The notes under the pieces were generated by a model, which saw only the letters and a program-made list of their open reading frames with translations, ran no database searches and was not told the DNA's origin. Made by a program: the position numbers and the translations under genes. From a virus, in the IMG/VR virus record IMGVR_UViG_3300043419_003048, positions 1-44,294 of that record: a stretch of 44,294 nt of DNA; one strand, given 5' to 3'. The first letter of the stretch is position 1. Each line of letters begins with the position of its first letter. Positions 37,796 through 43,350 of the stretch are shown in pieces.

Positions 37796-38977
37796 GTGCC
37801 GGTCACGATCACCACAACACCAGGTACGGCCTATGTCTGGGCAAATGCGGCCTTCAGCTGGGACGCGACCGAGGCCGGTAAGGCTTGGCAGGACGCCAGC
37901 GCCACAAGCTTTCTCGCTGAAGAAAGCGATGGTTTTCTGCTTGCGCCGTTGGAAGCACGCCTGCCAGTCATCAGTGACAGCGAGAGCCTTGGTCTTGCCG
38001 ATGCGGATGCTTTCGCCGCCACAGCCAGCGTAGCGGAGTCCCTCTCTCTTTCCGAGACCTACATCGATCTCATCGCGTTCATTCTGACGGCTGGGGAGTC
38101 AATCGGCATCGGCGAAACCGCACCGCGCCAAATCACTCAGTCGCCCTTCGCTGAGCTGCTCGGGCTGGTCGACAGCGTGTCAAAGAACCCCATCACTATT
38201 ACCAATGAGACATGGAGCACGCTCGAACAGGATGCCGCCTTAATAGGGCAAGCCATCGCTGAGAGCGCGGAGTTTATTGAACAATCCGCACACGATGCGG
38301 CTACACCCCGAAGCAGCACGCTCACGCTCGGAGAGCTTCGTGGCGCTGAGGCGATCCAGAGCAGCCTTCGCAGCCTCGCCTTCGCGGAGACCTACACTGA
38401 TCTGATTGCCTTCGTCGCGCAGATAGCCGAGCAGATCGCAATTGCAGATGCGCGCGGCAACGTAACCACCAAGCTGTCGTTCGAACAGCTAGCGTTGCTG
38501 GACCGGATCCTTCGCGCCTCAGGGGCCGTCATCGCAGACCTCGCGTTCCGGACCACGGCACTCGATGACGAAGGTTTTGCGGCTCTCATCGCCGAGGCAC
38601 GTCCTCTTGGGTTCAGCGCTTTTCGCGACCTGACACCTGGTGACTACGAATACGCGAATGCGCTTATTCGTTTGGCGCTCGCAGCGCCCAGCACATCGAC
38701 CAGCCGGATCGCGCTGACCGATGCAAAGTTCATCGTGGATGTTCCGGATATCCGGGATCGCGGCACGGTTGCGGTTCCTATCGGCGGACTGACGGTCGCC
38801 TTCAGCCAGCCATTTAATGCACCGCCTGAAGTCCAGGCGACGTTCAAGGGCGGCGCGACCATCGCTGTGCCGCAGATCGGCACGATCACGACGAGCGGGT
38901 TCCAGCTGACCCTCATCAATCCTGCAACCCAATCCTCTGTGGCCGGCAACGCCAGCTGGGCCGCTGAAGGCTACTGA
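37796..38977 (+). CDS. Distal tail protein with an internal duplication and a lectin-like end
   Basis: 393 residues, GTG start. Two copies of a segment (SLSLSETYIDLIAF ... GESIGIGE, about 81-107; SLAFAETYTDLIAF ... AEQIAIAD, about 193-218) lie about 110 residues apart, showing an ancient duplication. The last 70 residues (AFSQPFNAPPEVQATFKGGA, VPQIGTITTSGFQLTLINPA, ASWAAEGY) resemble the H-type lectin domain seen on phage fibres, which binds sugars. It probably helps recognise the host surface. The lectin call is by pattern only. Confidence 0.7.
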   Translation: MPVTITTTPGTAYVWANAAFSWDATEAGKAWQDASATSFLAEESDGFLLAPLEARLPVISDSESLGLADADAFAATASVAESLSLSETYIDLIAFILTAGESIGIGETAPRQITQSPFAELLGLVDSVSKNPITITNETWSTLEQDAALIGQAIAESAEFIEQSAHDAATPRSSTLTLGELRGAEAIQSSLRSLAFAETYTDLIAFVAQIAEQIAIADARGNVTTKLSFEQLALLDRILRASGAVIADLAFRTTALDDEGFAALIAEARPLGFSAFRDLTPGDYEYANALIRLALAAPSTSTSRIALTDAKFIVDVPDIRDRGTVAVPIGGLTVAFSQPFNAPPEVQATFKGGATIAVPQIGTITTSGFQLTLINPATQSSVAGNASWAAEGY

Positions 38978-38988
38978 CCGAGGACCGC

Positions 38989-40053
38989 ATGGCCCAGACC
39001 TATCCCGATATCCCATCGACCAAGGCGGTCCGTGATAGCCGGCAGGATATCCTTGATCGTGACGAGGCGATCCGCTCGGCTTTCTCCGGCACGACCTTTC
39101 CCAGTACCAACTTGGTCGCCGGCATGCTCTGCTTTCGGACCGATTTGGGCCAGCTCTATCAGCTGACCATTGCCTCGCCCGTCACATGGACGCGCGTCCC
39201 GCTTGGTGTGCCTGTTCCGATCTCGCAGGGCGGCACCAACGCAACAGACGCCGCGACAGCACGCAGCAATCTTGGCTTGGCGGCGCTTGCCGTCAAAAAC
39301 ACGGTCGCGGCTTCCGATATCGATAATGCCGCCGTCCAGACCGCCAAGGTCCAGGACGGCGCCGTCACGACGGCAAAGATCGGCGACGCACAGGTCACCA
39401 CGGCCAAGATCGCTGATGCGCAGGTAACGACGGCCAAGGTCGCCGACGGCGCCATCACCAGCGCAAAAATCACGGATGGCGCGATCGCAACAGGTGATCT
39501 TGCAAGCCAGACTATTGCCGACATTCGCGCCGGCGTTGATCTCGGAAGCCGTGTCGCCAAGTCGGGCGATACCATGACCGGAACGCTGACTGCGCCCGGA
39601 CTGGTCTCGACCGGCTCAGTGCGTTCCGGCGCCACCGGCGACAATGCGCGCGCGACCGGGTTCATAATCGCCGACGGGACAGATATCGGCGAGCTCAACC
39701 GCAGCAACCAGTACTACGACGACCGCGTCAACAACTGCTCCGGCTATCTGCCGAACGGCAATTGCTTCGGCAATGGGCTCTGGACACCGCCCAACGGTAA
39801 TTGGTGGACATGGGGATTGGGCTTTAGCCCCGGTAATCCCAGCGGCTTCGATTTCGCGGGCGGCTCCAGCGTCGTCTACCAGGCGGTATCTGTCGGCTTC
39901 GTTTATGCCGGCTACAATCTCGCTGCAGATGAAATCGGCGGCGGTGAGTATCGGCGCAACTTCAACAACTGCAATTGCGGCGGCTTCAACTGCTACTCGA
40001 ACTGCAATTGCAACTGTAATTGCGATTGCAACTGCGCCTGCGGTGACGGCTGA
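38989..40053 (+). CDS. Tail fibre protein with decapeptide repeats and an Asn-Cys-rich C-terminus
   Basis: 354 residues. Residues 79-97 (SQGGTNATDAATARSNLGL) carry the GGT-A-ARxNLGL mark of phage tail fibres. Residues 111-170 are six decapeptides of the form xxDGAVTTAKI, likely a trimeric beta shaft. A globular part follows, with Trp/Gly-rich 260-290. The last 27 residues hold ten Cys (328, 330, 335, 339, 341, 343, 345, 347, 349, 351), eight preceded by Asn; Cys250 and Cys259 are also preceded by Asn. Two radical SAM genes follow, so this tail is the likely substrate. Disulphides or metal binding are alternatives. Confidence 0.85.
   Translation: MAQTYPDIPSTKAVRDSRQDILDRDEAIRSAFSGTTFPSTNLVAGMLCFRTDLGQLYQLTIASPVTWTRVPLGVPVPISQGGTNATDAATARSNLGLAALAVKNTVAASDIDNAAVQTAKVQDGAVTTAKIGDAQVTTAKIADAQVTTAKVADGAITSAKITDGAIATGDLASQTIADIRAGVDLGSRVAKSGDTMTGTLTAPGLVSTGSVRSGATGDNARATGFIIADGTDIGELNRSNQYYDDRVNNCSGYLPNGNCFGNGLWTPPNGNWWTWGLGFSPGNPSGFDFAGGSSVVYQAVSVGFVYAGYNLAADEIGGGEYRRNFNNCNCGGFNCYSNCNCNCNCDCNCACGDG
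39319..39498 (+). repeat. Six 30-base units coding the fibre shaft decapeptide
   Basis: The repeats encode (V/I)xDxxVTTAK-type units in residues 111-170 of the tail fibre: IDNAAVQTAK, VQDGAVTTAK, IGDAQVTTAK, IADAQVTTAK, VADGAITSAK and ITDGAIATGD. The DNA copies (GACGGCGCCGTCACGACGGC and variants) are similar enough for recombination to change shaft length. Confidence 0.85.
39961..40041 (+). repeat. Asn-Cys repeat tract ending the tail fibre
   Basis: The coding stretch is built on AACTGC/AATTGC, each coding Asn-Cys. Asn codons alternate AAC and AAT and Cys codons TGC and TGT, so the codons are mixed although the protein is regular; this fits selection at the protein level. It ends in GDG and a TGA stop at 40051-40053. 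Confidence 0.85.
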
Positions 40054-40064
40054 GGAGCTAGATC

Positions 40065-40949
40065 ATGATCAAGCCATTCACCCGGCACTTCTTCGATCTG
40101 CCTTTGCCGATCCTCGTGCTTGTGCGTCGGGATCGTCGCAAGGTGACCTGTCGAACATTCCGCGAGCTCTCGGCCGATGTGGAGCACGCCAATCCGATCA
40201 CGCGGCAGGAAGCTGAGCGTCTCTTGACTGAGCACGCTGATGTGGGACCCGGCGCCATGTTTCGCCGCCGTCCCATCACCGGTCGTTTCCTGTCATCGAC
40301 GCTCGATGCGCGCATCTTCGAGGAGCTTGGCGGCGTGTGTCTGGATCTGGATGGCACGCTCGGCAAAGGCGAATGGTCCGACCGTTCAAACTGGGTTTTT
40401 CCGCTCGATCACGCAGGCACGCCGCAGGTTCCTTTCAACCGCTTCGTCATGACGCGCGACACCAAGGCACGGACACCAAGATTGCTCGCGACGGCAGGCA
40501 AAAACTGCGCGCTTCAGATCTATGTTCCCTTTGCAAGCTGCGACTTCGACAGCAGCAGTTTCAGTGTCGCACTGCATCGTGATTTCGGCTTAGTCGGCAA
40601 TCTCGATCCCGGCGCCGAGGTGACCTATGCGGACGTCCTCGGGGGCGCTCAGAAGCCCTTCGCAGACATTGCTCTGTCGACTGATGCAATCGACCTGGCG
40701 CCCGATGCCTATGGCACCGTCACGGCGCAGCTCGTGGATGGTGCGGGTAAGGCCATCAGGGATGCAGAGGCGGAGCTTTTCATCGAAGCCACTGGCGGAT
40801 ACCTGCCACAGCAGCGGGCGATGACGAGCAAGGGTAAGACGCAGTTCCGCATCAGCGCGCTTGGCCTCGCTGCCGGTGAGAGCTTTCGGGTCAAGATCGG
40901 CTTTCGGCACTTCAGCAGCGTCGCCGAAGTGAAGGTTCAGGTGGTCTGA
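40065..40949 (+). CDS. Unrecognised protein with an invasin/Ig-like C-terminal domain
   Basis: 294 residues, strong GAGGAG ribosome site. Residues about 1-190 match nothing I recognise; RFLSSTLDARIFEELGGVCLDLDGTLGKG is a conserved-looking segment. The last 85 residues (AYGTVTAQLVDGAGKAIRDAEAELFIEA, GYLPQQRAMTSKGKTQFRISALGLAAGESFRVKI) follow the Big_1/invasin-type Ig pattern. It lies between the Asn-Cys fibre and the first radical SAM gene and is in the same reading frame as that gene, with only a TGA and one codon between. It could be a fibre partner, chaperone or leader-binding protein. Confidence 0.72.
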   Translation: MIKPFTRHFFDLPLPILVLVRRDRRKVTCRTFRELSADVEHANPITRQEAERLLTEHADVGPGAMFRRRPITGRFLSSTLDARIFEELGGVCLDLDGTLGKGEWSDRSNWVFPLDHAGTPQVPFNRFVMTRDTKARTPRLLATAGKNCALQIYVPFASCDFDSSSFSVALHRDFGLVGNLDPGAEVTYADVLGGAQKPFADIALSTDAIDLAPDAYGTVTAQLVDGAGKAIRDAEAELFIEATGGYLPQQRAMTSKGKTQFRISALGLAAGESFRVKIGFRHFSSVAEVKVQVV

Positions 40950-40952
40950 GCC

Positions 40953-41975
40953 TTGCTCAACATCTTCCTCGGCTATGCGTGCAATTTCTCATGCAGCTAC
41001 TGCCTTCAAGAACTCGATGCGCCCGATGCCGTGCGGCAGCGTCACCCGATCGAGCCCTTCATCGAACGCGTCGTCCCATTCGTCCGGGAGAATGGAATCA
41101 AGCGGATCGACTATTGGGGCGGCGAGCCGCTGCTCTATTGGCGCGAGATCAGCGCCATTCATACGGCGTTTGAGCGCGCGGGGCTGGCTTTCGACTTCGT
41201 GCGCATCACGACCAACGGTAGCCTGCTAGCGCCGGATTTCGTTGGGCCGATGAACGACTGGAACTTCTACGTGGTCGTAAGCGACCATGGCGAGTTCGGC
41301 CAGCCGGCATGGGACATGGTGCGCAGGGTCAAGCGGTCGAGCATTTCGTTTTTGTTCACCGCCGAGAACCCGTTCATCTGGCCGCTTTTCGAAAAGCTCG
41401 ATCGGCTTGAAGCGGACTACGGTCGACCGTTCTGGCCCTATGCCCATTGGGTCCGCACGACCAGGGGGTGCGCGCCGAGATACTGGTTCACGCCTGAGAG
41501 CCTTGACCGCCATGTCGAGCATCTCTGGGAGCTGGCGCGGATGCGGCTTTCTGGACACCGTCATGCCAGCCTTTTCTTCGACGGTCATCTCGATGAATGG
41601 CGTCGCGGCTTGGCGCGCGCAGCAGCTCCCGTGGAGCCGCTGTGCCACAGCGCCAGCCATTTGTCGGTCGATCTCGCCGGCAACCGCTATGCCTGCCACC
41701 ACAGTGTGAAACGCAGCTTCCGGACGGGGCATCTCTTCGACGAGACCGGGCCGCGCGATCAGGGCGAACAAGAAGCTCTCGATCACTCCTGGCGCTGGGT
41801 GAGAAGCGCCGAGTGCCAGGCCTGCCCGGTGCGCTCCTGGTGCCGCGGCAATTGCCATCTGTCGCAGACCCACGAACTCGACTGCAGGCTGTCCCGCGAG
41901 AAGCATCGGGTTTTTGCCTGGCTCGACCAACAAGAGAACGGCGCGCTCGCGCGCAATCAGATCAAGGTGCCCTGA
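40953..41975 (+). CDS. Radical SAM/SPASM protein, first enzyme of the fibre-linked pair
   Basis: 340 residues, TTG start four bases after the previous stop. The AdoMet-binding cluster motif is C10-x3-C14-x2-C17 (YACNFSCSYC), followed by the GGEP motif (DYWGGEPLLYW). The SPASM domain is complete: Cys231-x11-Gly-x4-Cys248, then Cys288-x2-Cys291-x5-Cys297-x3-Cys301 and Cys311, for two auxiliary Fe-S clusters. SPASM enzymes act on peptide side chains: sactionine and other thioether links, formylglycine, or crosslinks. The adjacent Asn-Cys fibre end is the obvious substrate. There is almost no N-terminal extension, so no RRE-type recognition domain. Confidence 0.9.
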   Translation: MLNIFLGYACNFSCSYCLQELDAPDAVRQRHPIEPFIERVVPFVRENGIKRIDYWGGEPLLYWREISAIHTAFERAGLAFDFVRITTNGSLLAPDFVGPMNDWNFYVVVSDHGEFGQPAWDMVRRVKRSSISFLFTAENPFIWPLFEKLDRLEADYGRPFWPYAHWVRTTRGCAPRYWFTPESLDRHVEHLWELARMRLSGHRHASLFFDGHLDEWRRGLARAAAPVEPLCHSASHLSVDLAGNRYACHHSVKRSFRTGHLFDETGPRDQGEQEALDHSWRWVRSAECQACPVRSWCRGNCHLSQTHELDCRLSREKHRVFAWLDQQENGALARNQIKVP

Positions 41976-41976
41976 A

Positions 41977-43350
41977 ATGACCGAAACCCTCGAATACCGG
42001 CTCGCGATGGCGGGCCGGAACGGATACGCACGCGCGCTGCTCTACCGCCCGCACAGCTCAGAACTTCGTTGGGAAGATACCGGCGAGCCCGTCGATCTGC
42101 GGGCGGTCGGCACAAATTACGATCCATCGCCACCCGACTGGACGCCTGCGGAGCCCGTGTCTCCAGCCAATCCGGGTCGCAAAAGCCGCGATATCCGCGT
42201 GCTGAAGATCCAGATGGGGCTCAAGTGCAACTACGCCTGCACCTACTGCAATCAGGCGTCCCAGCCCCATGAAATCCAGGGTGACATGGGCGACGTCCAA
42301 TCCTTCCTGCGCCGCCTCCCGACCTGGTTTGACGGCGGCAAGGAAGGCGATGGCAGCGGCGTGCGCATCGAGTTCTGGGGCGGCGAGCCTCTGGTGTACT
42401 GGAAGACGTTCCGCGTCCTCGCTGGCGCGCTGCGATCGGCCTATCCCAAGGCTCGCTTCAATGTCATCACCAACGGCGCGCTTATCGACGACGACAAGAT
42501 CGAGTTCTTGGACAAGCTCGGCTTCGGCGTCGGCATCAGCCATGACGGCCCGGCCATGCGCTATCGCGGGCCGGACCCGCTCGACGATCCGGACCAGCGC
42601 GCCGGGATCCGCAAGCTCTACGACCGTCTGCGCCCCTGGGGTCGGATCGGGTTCAACTGCGTGCTGCACAAGCACAACATGTCGCTGGTCGCAGTGCGGC
42701 GCCACATTGCCGAGCGCTTGGGCGTGCCGGTCGACGACATTCCGCTCTCCACCGAGGAAATACTGCTGCCCTACGATCAGGGCGGTATCGCTCTCTCGCC
42801 TCAGACCGAGAGCGAGCATCGCGCCTATTTGGAGGCGGTGTTCTGGGAAGCTGTACGCGGTGAGAGCATGCCGATCTCGACCCTACGTTCGAAGATCGAC
42901 GAGTTCTTTCGCTCCATCGCACAGGCACGCCCCGCATCGTCTCTTGGCCAGAAATGCGGCATGGACCGGCCGACCGATCTGGCCGTCGATCTCAAGGGCA
43001 ATGCCCTGACCTGTCAGAATACGAGTGCGGCCACCAAGCACCGGATCGGTTCGATCGAGGCGTTCGAGGACATCCGTCTTACAATGGCCCACCACTGGTC
43101 GACGCGCGTCGAATGCCGGAGCTGCCCGGTGCTGCAGCTTTGCCAAGGCGCCTGCCTCTTCCTCGAAGACGGCCTGTGGCGGCAGGCCTGCGACAACAGC
43201 CTCACCCACAATCTCGCGGTCCTTGCGGCATCCCTCTACTGGCTCACCCGACTCGTCCTCGTTGAAATCGAGGGGCCGGTCATGCGCCGTGACGGTCTGC
43301 CGAACCGTATCCCCGTGATCACGCTGCCGGCGGAACTCGCCGCAGCCTGA
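41977..43350 (+). CDS. Radical SAM/SPASM protein, second enzyme of the fibre-linked pair
   Basis: 457 residues from ATG 41977, one base after the first enzyme's stop. A 70-residue extension (GNxYDPSPP-type, residues 30-65) precedes the cluster motif C84-x3-C88-x2-C91 (LKCNYACTYC). GGEP (FWGGEPLVYW) and VITNGALI follow, then a full SPASM domain: Cys327-x13-Gly-x4-Cys346, Cys380-x2-Cys383-x5-Cys389-x3-Cys393 and Cys405. It clearly belongs to the anSME/RiPP-maturase branch. Two different enzymes imply two steps, two positions, or a working heterodimer. The N-terminal extension may bind substrate. Confidence 0.92.
   Translation: MTETLEYRLAMAGRNGYARALLYRPHSSELRWEDTGEPVDLRAVGTNYDPSPPDWTPAEPVSPANPGRKSRDIRVLKIQMGLKCNYACTYCNQASQPHEIQGDMGDVQSFLRRLPTWFDGGKEGDGSGVRIEFWGGEPLVYWKTFRVLAGALRSAYPKARFNVITNGALIDDDKIEFLDKLGFGVGISHDGPAMRYRGPDPLDDPDQRAGIRKLYDRLRPWGRIGFNCVLHKHNMSLVAVRRHIAERLGVPVDDIPLSTEEILLPYDQGGIALSPQTESEHRAYLEAVFWEAVRGESMPISTLRSKIDEFFRSIAQARPASSLGQKCGMDRPTDLAVDLKGNALTCQNTSAATKHRIGSIEAFEDIRLTMAHHWSTRVECRSCPVLQLCQGACLFLEDGLWRQACDNSLTHNLAVLAASLYWLTRLVLVEIEGPVMRRDGLPNRIPVITLPAELAAA

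Follow-up and report, generated by a model that had tools for sequence, protein, structure and literature searches.

The window, the whole 44,294-base stretch of a virus record, carries a tail-fibre gene whose product ends in a cysteine-rich tail, with genes for two radical SAM/SPASM enzymes a short distance downstream. The fibre protein, P0001 (354 aa; 38989..40053, + strand), matches PHROG tail-fibre families over residues ~93-210 (phrog_892, E=1.7e-13) and is encoded downstream of genes for a tape-measure protein and a gpJ-like tip protein; both its fibre homology and its position in the tail module identify it as a phage tail fibre. Directly upstream of the fibre gene lies P0006 (393 aa; 37796..38977, + strand), a conserved protein whose family is found upstream of the tail gene in 52 loci, and downstream follow, all on one strand, P0002, P0003, P0004 and an endolysin-like gene. 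The fibre shaft contains a 30-bp tandem repeat with VTTAKIADAQ-type units (39364-39448). No homologues of the fibre head were found in a search of phage records, and promoter and terminator scans gave no signal exceeding chance.

The P0001 protein terminates in ...NNCNCGGFNCYSNCNCNCNCDCNCACGDG, and the X-Cys tail proper, NCNCGGFNCYSNCNCNCNCDCNCACGDG, is encoded at 39967..40050 (+ strand). The Cys residues of P0001 are located at positions 48, 250, 259, 328, 330, 335, 339, 341, 343, 345, 347, 349 and 351, so that Cys accounts for 10 of the final 32 residues, compared with 1.4% of codons over the 17 ORFs of the window. The regular alternation of Asn and Cys with mixed codons, first noticed in the bare sequence, is real: Asn precedes 8 of the 10 tail Cys, and the tail uses six AAC and three AAT codons for Asn and nine TGC and one TGT for Cys. 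Since the remaining two pairs are Asp-Cys and Ala-Cys, “Asn-Cys” is a good, inexact label for this tail. The pattern exceeds chance; when the last 60 residues of P0001 were shuffled, the seven-step alternation recurred in 1 of 100,000 shuffles, as did the eight Asn-Cys pairs. Just before the tail lies the motif DEIGGxEYRRxxN (39928..39966, + strand), which is kept in most relatives with the P0001 head type and is a possible recognition segment for the enzyme.

Tandem Repeats Finder detected no clean hexamer repeat in the tail, and only imperfect 12- and 18-bp arrays with 75-83% matches. In the closest relatives (L004 and L005), the tail amino acids are identical and the DNA changes are silent only. 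An alignment of homologous fibre ends had been proposed as the check for selection on the protein, and it gave the expected result: in 53 DNA versions of NCNCGxxNCxxNCNCxC, Asn and Cys do not change, apart from the last X (Asn in 50 of 53), while AAC/AAT and TGC/TGT alternate silently at every Asn and Cys site, which establishes, at the sequence level, that selection acts on the protein. Among 155 distinct tails, a set in which a few antisense or chance ORFs remain, identical adjacent Asn-Cys hexamers numbered 117 of 396, against 143 +/- 7.5 expected from random codon assignment by codon permutation. With one tail per 75% cluster, the figure was 54 of 186 against 64.5 +/- 5.2. The first-pass annotation had argued that the tail is not a simple slippage product, and both permutation sets bear this out, with hexamer identity below expectation. 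Such a deficit is the opposite of what slippage would leave and hints at selection against perfect repeats.

Across the homologues, the tail consists of a proximal motif, NCNCGxxNCx(S/T)NCNCNC, followed by a looser (XC)n part, and the alternating run is 3 to 11 steps long. The residue before the tail Cys is mostly Asn (916), then Ala (152) and Asp (84), with C, G, Q, R, S and T among the rarer residues alongside Tyr (19). In about 90% of tails, Asn occupies positions 1-3 of the alternating run; further along, Asn, Ala and Asp are mixed. In the bodies of the tail-bearing fibres, 155 of 233 Cys residues (66%) follow Asn, compared with 26 (11%) expected, and in 816 other proteins from the same loci, taken as a control, Asn precedes Cys in 3.5% of cases against 3.7% expected. 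In L102 and L183, whose loci match the enzyme family weakly, Cys-Gln-x repeats with Cys at every third residue (CQTCQGCQSCQ) stand before the NC tail.

The first-pass annotation had further pointed to two Asn-Cys pairs in the globular part of the fibre and suggested that Asn-Cys itself, rather than the repeat, may be what the enzyme recognizes. These pairs, Asn249-Cys250 (39733..39738, + strand) and Asn258-Cys259 (39760..39765, + strand), were confirmed, each being present in every aligned homologue that covers the site; Cys250 and Cys259 are conserved in all complete homologues, every one of which also bears the tail. Given that Asn-Cys is enriched in tails and bodies but not in the control proteins, a recognition preference is supported, whereas an absolute rule is rejected. 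Tails with AC, DC, QC and SYC exist, and Cys stands in other contexts beside the enzyme, the very case named beforehand as speaking against a strict rule, in L046, L050 and L216 (SYC-SYC-SYC-TYC or a shorter form) and in L253 (ACACAC).

The core enzyme of the locus, P0004 (457 aa; 41977..43350, + strand), belongs to phrog_1802 (E=7.5e-52). Its ORF was listed with a TTG start at 41914, within P0003, and the ATG at 41977 suits the family better. In a comparison of 31 diverse enzymes, the Cys residues of the radical SAM motif (CxxxCxYC; C84, C88 and C91) are invariant, as are C327, G341, C346, C380, C383, C389, C393 and C405, which correspond to the SPASM pattern Cx9-15Gx4C ... Cx2Cx5Cx3C ... C. 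The AF2 model of P0004 (pLDDT 93) is nearest to CteB (5why, E=7e-13), as expected for the fold of this class, with anSME (anSMEcpe), ChlB, TigE and SuiB among the further top PDB matches. The NCBIfam neighbours are Cys-peptide maturases (nif11, PapB, QhpD-type and SCIFF). No cut-off of the NCBIfam maturase families (PapB, ScfB, nif11, QhpD and anSME) was reached, the best score being 65.9 against 518.7 bits and that for PapB 58.9 against 340, and the P0004 family is therefore left unnamed. Plasmid matches to P0004 are distant maturases, with at most 27% identity among the matches listed. No RRE or winged-helix domain was found at the N-terminus of the P0004 model, where a small beta element is predicted; since many RiPP systems have no RRE, this absence is not decisive.

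The second radical SAM/SPASM enzyme, P0003 (340 aa; 40953..41975, + strand), matches PF04055 (E=2.8e-8) and the SPASM family TIGR04085 (39.5 bits against a cut-off of 27), and its best family match is PapB-type, well under the cut-off of that family. By their sequences, both enzymes look intact and of peptide-maturase type. P0003 is optional: P0003-like ORFs occur in 25 records, and the close relatives L006, L007 and L204 have none. Tails from loci with P0003 tend to have an acidic residue following the final Cys (11 of 12, compared with 28 of 113), a post hoc and clade-biased comparison.

To describe the association of tail and enzyme, we used three separate searches, with the enzyme as query, with only a DNA pattern of NCNCNCXC, and with only the fibre head; the counts share ancestry, and the contigs come from metagenomes and are in many cases fragments. 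The enzyme query yielded 80 viral and 80 bacterial genome loci that were kept, the latter including Limnohabitans, Thalassobacter, Magnetospirillum, Burkholderia paludis and Bradyrhizobium. In the tail-pattern scan, for which the enzyme was not a query, the genuine C-terminal tails followed by at least 3.3 kb of sequence numbered 38, and all 38 had a P0004-family enzyme on the same strand within 6 kb. The head-domain scan placed the enzyme within the 4-kb flank in 14 of 17 cases and 4-6 kb downstream in the other three, and the fibre-head homologues that no contig end truncates were all tail-bearing. Antisense reading artefacts aside, the tail loci without an enzyme are contig ends or have too-short flanks, and a contig that stops within about 1.5 kb of the tail is uninformative for pairing. 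A protein of ~40-80 aa with KNCNCNCHC from other viral contigs (L095-L098, L103, L113 and others), which has the DNA pattern and no enzyme, is unrelated and was set aside. Thus, wherever the downstream sequence suffices, the gene pairing is strict and without counterexample.

In the reverse direction, a recognized tail was found at 136 of the 152 enzyme loci with at least 4.5 kb upstream. Among the 16 tail-negative loci, L278, L115 and L262 have tails missed by the automatic test, L253 holds a small peptide instead, and about a dozen have neither a recognized tail nor a nameable alternative substrate. Ten records were examined, and none holds a radical SAM gene beyond the one or two of the P0004/P0003 type. 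The tails form ~77 clusters; the fibre heads that carry them differ, and the hosts of these phages and prophages span many Proteobacteria. The tail is fused either at the C-terminus or ahead of a Hint domain, and in L082 and L306 a single locus holds two or three tail-bearing fibre genes in tandem.

Several further families adjoin the tail. P0002 (294 aa; 40065..40949, + strand) is encoded directly downstream of the tail gene, as is its family in most loci examined, and family members are found in 179 loci; its AF2 model (pLDDT 94) has a C-terminal Ig-like domain, and in fold searches the N-terminal domain and the full length match uncharacterised phage proteins only. Several unrelated 2-oxoglutarate oxygenase-like families adjoin the tail in many loci, most with weak Pfam matches. 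Of the relatives without P0003, L006 and L204 were examined and carry such a gene, and in L248, a tail-less relative, a match to the Asp/Asn beta-hydroxylase family PF05118 adjoins the enzyme. A Hint (intein-like) domain is fused directly after the Cys tail in L022, L033, L045, L084, L117, L190, L217-L220, L249 and L278, and could trim or activate the fibre C-terminus. The locus L253 (8004-9968, a MAG contig) encodes a P0004-family enzyme, a PqqD-like protein that scores below its family cut-off, and a 62-aa peptide ending in ACACACGGPCY, an arrangement that looks like a stand-alone RiPP locus; no relatives of this peptide were found in viral contigs. Beside a tail-region protein made up of HxD/HSD/HAD repeats, L085 (Thermus phage Cumys, 3997-6287) encodes a radical SAM protein of another kind whose own end has similar repeats, possibly a second pairing of a repeat tail with a radical SAM enzyme.

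Given that an alternating Cys tail is encoded beside enzymes of the kind that cross-link Cys peptides, the virion tip is probably chemically rebuilt after synthesis. It is very likely that the Cys tail is the substrate of the radical SAM/SPASM enzyme, and we favour, with moderate confidence, a RiPP-like, radical-SAM-crosslinked tip on the virion fibre. The fibre would be synthesized with an unmodified Cys tail as the ribosomal substrate of the adjacent enzyme or enzymes. P0004, together with P0003 where present, would bind the fibre, possibly through the conserved pre-tail segment, and would abstract hydrogen from a backbone or side-chain carbon of a residue next to or near Cys; that carbon would then be joined to the Cys sulphur. 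In the product, thioether rings (sactionine/ranthionine-like) would form a ladder at the distal fibre end and give a rigid, disulphide-free tip that may resist oxidation and proteases. Asn would be favoured in the first repeats, with Ala and Asp tolerated farther out. In related phages, the 2-oxoglutarate oxygenases may hydroxylate the tail and the Hint domain may trim it. The tip would most likely serve receptor contact or envelope penetration, and a role of the modified tip at adsorption is, in our view, reasonably probable.

The chemical nature of the product is a more evenly balanced matter, and we give a thioether about an even chance. As in RiPP systems, the putative substrate is ribosomal, adjacent to the enzyme and ends in a conserved repetitive C-terminal core, as seen throughout the tail-pattern scan. 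Two other RiPP hallmarks, a small precursor with a cleavable leader and an RRE or PqqD-like domain, are represented in L253 only, by its small peptide and its PqqD-like protein, and the substrate elsewhere is a fibre, of 354 aa in P0001. The crosslinked-tip reading is less certain because we know of no thioether system with strict every-second-residue alternation and P0004 has no RRE, and likewise because of the tail-less enzyme loci and the maturase cut-offs that were not reached. For the tailed-phage group as a whole, a RiPP-like tip built as a Cys thioether ladder, sometimes hydroxylated or Hint-trimmed and acting as a stiff needle or a covalent receptor-binding device, may be right about as often as wrong.

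Alternatively, the enzyme may alter the X residue and form no cross-link, by D/L epimerisation or by oxidation, possibly with Asn beta-hydroxylation by the 2-oxoglutarate oxygenases. Alternating D/L helices (polytheonamide-type beta-helices) need strict every-second-residue placement, which the tail would provide, and the oxygenase families adjoining the tail, with the PF05118 match at L248, fit as well. We nevertheless consider this unlikely: the folds closest to P0004 belong to thioether and formylglycine enzymes, the epimerase EpeE matches it less well (6e-8 vs 7e-13), and Cys is invariant while X is variable, so that Cys is the constrained partner.

Less probable still is a metal-threaded needle, in which inward thiolates of the fibre trimer hold a line of iron or zinc and the radical SAM enzyme is an accessory or has another target. 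Stacked metal sites have been described in phage fibre tips, as in the HxH tip of T4 gp37 (PMC11705849), and strict alternation suits a beta strand whose Cys side chains all face inward. Yet HxH fibres have no reported need for a radical SAM enzyme, while here one is present at every adequately covered tail locus; moreover, the proximal motif NCNCGxxNCxTNC interrupts the alternation, the run varies in length as given above, and Asn at X is much more constrained than expected for a solvent-facing residue.

Oxidation of Cys to formylglycine by an anSME-like reaction, leaving a row of aldehydes that might attach covalently to the cell surface, is very improbable. The anSMEcpe structures 4k37 and 4k39 are among the best fold matches and one phage homologue is annotated as an anaerobic sulfatase-maturating enzyme, but the sulfatase maturase score is 46.7 against a cut-off of 349 bits, and C/S-x-P/A-x-R, the pattern recognized by anSME, is absent. 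Finally, an Asn-Cys string produced by hexamer slippage, with no meaning for the protein, can practically be dismissed: the weak 12- and 18-bp periodicity speaks for it, but codon permutation rejects it, the amino acids are fixed while the codons vary silently, and the tail is strictly linked to the enzyme gene.

Radical SAM peptide maturases have been described for small antibiotics, for signals and for a small number of enzymes. We found no account of radical-SAM-modified phage fibres in the open-access literature; the enzyme class is known, and its application to a virion protein appears to be new. Here such maturases are linked to what is probably the receptor-facing end of phage fibres, across many differing heads. 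Should the proposed tip exist, many phages of fresh and marine waters may recognize their hosts through a chemically rebuilt structure that is unreadable from sequence and beyond ordinary structure prediction tools, and the tip would represent a class of virion post-translational modification not described before. The tails also offer ready natural repeat substrates for enzyme study, with phage JWF available as an isolated phage.

Among known systems, the CteB/ScfB-type SPASM maturases (SCIFF ranthipeptides, PDB 5WHY) and PapB are the best fold and near family matches, sharing the radical SAM core and the seven-Cys SPASM domain, a substrate with a Cys-rich C-terminus and adjacent genes. They differ in that the phage substrate is a tail fibre with alternating X-Cys rather than a small leader peptide, and the phage enzyme has no recognized RRE and scores under every NCBIfam equivalog cut-off. 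QhpD/PeaB, the quinohemoprotein amine dehydrogenase maturase, is among the family matches of both P0003 and P0004, and likewise belongs to the SPASM enzymes; it forms its thioethers in a functional protein and not in a secreted peptide. Its target is an enzyme subunit with Cys-Asp/Glu links, whereas the phage target would be the open-ended Cys tail of a virion protein. P0004 is included in PHROG 1802, a family of phage radical SAM domain-containing proteins, for which PHROGs give neither function nor tail substrate. The fibre tip of T4, gp37, in which HxH motifs hold seven irons and whose motif has been proposed in other phages, similarly places alternating residues of metal-ligand type in a phage fibre (PMC11705849); the alternating residue in T4 is His, compared with Cys in the P0001 tail, and gp37 is not known to have a dedicated modifying enzyme and has no string at the extreme C-terminus. 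A parallel in an isolated phage is Achromobacter phage JWF, in which gp28, a Hom_end-associated Hint protein, carries the tail NCNCDCNCNCSC followed by the Hint domain, and a P0004 homologue is encoded two genes beyond; JWF differs from the present locus in having a single radical SAM gene and no P0003, and its annotations name only a Hint protein and a sulfatase-maturating enzyme.
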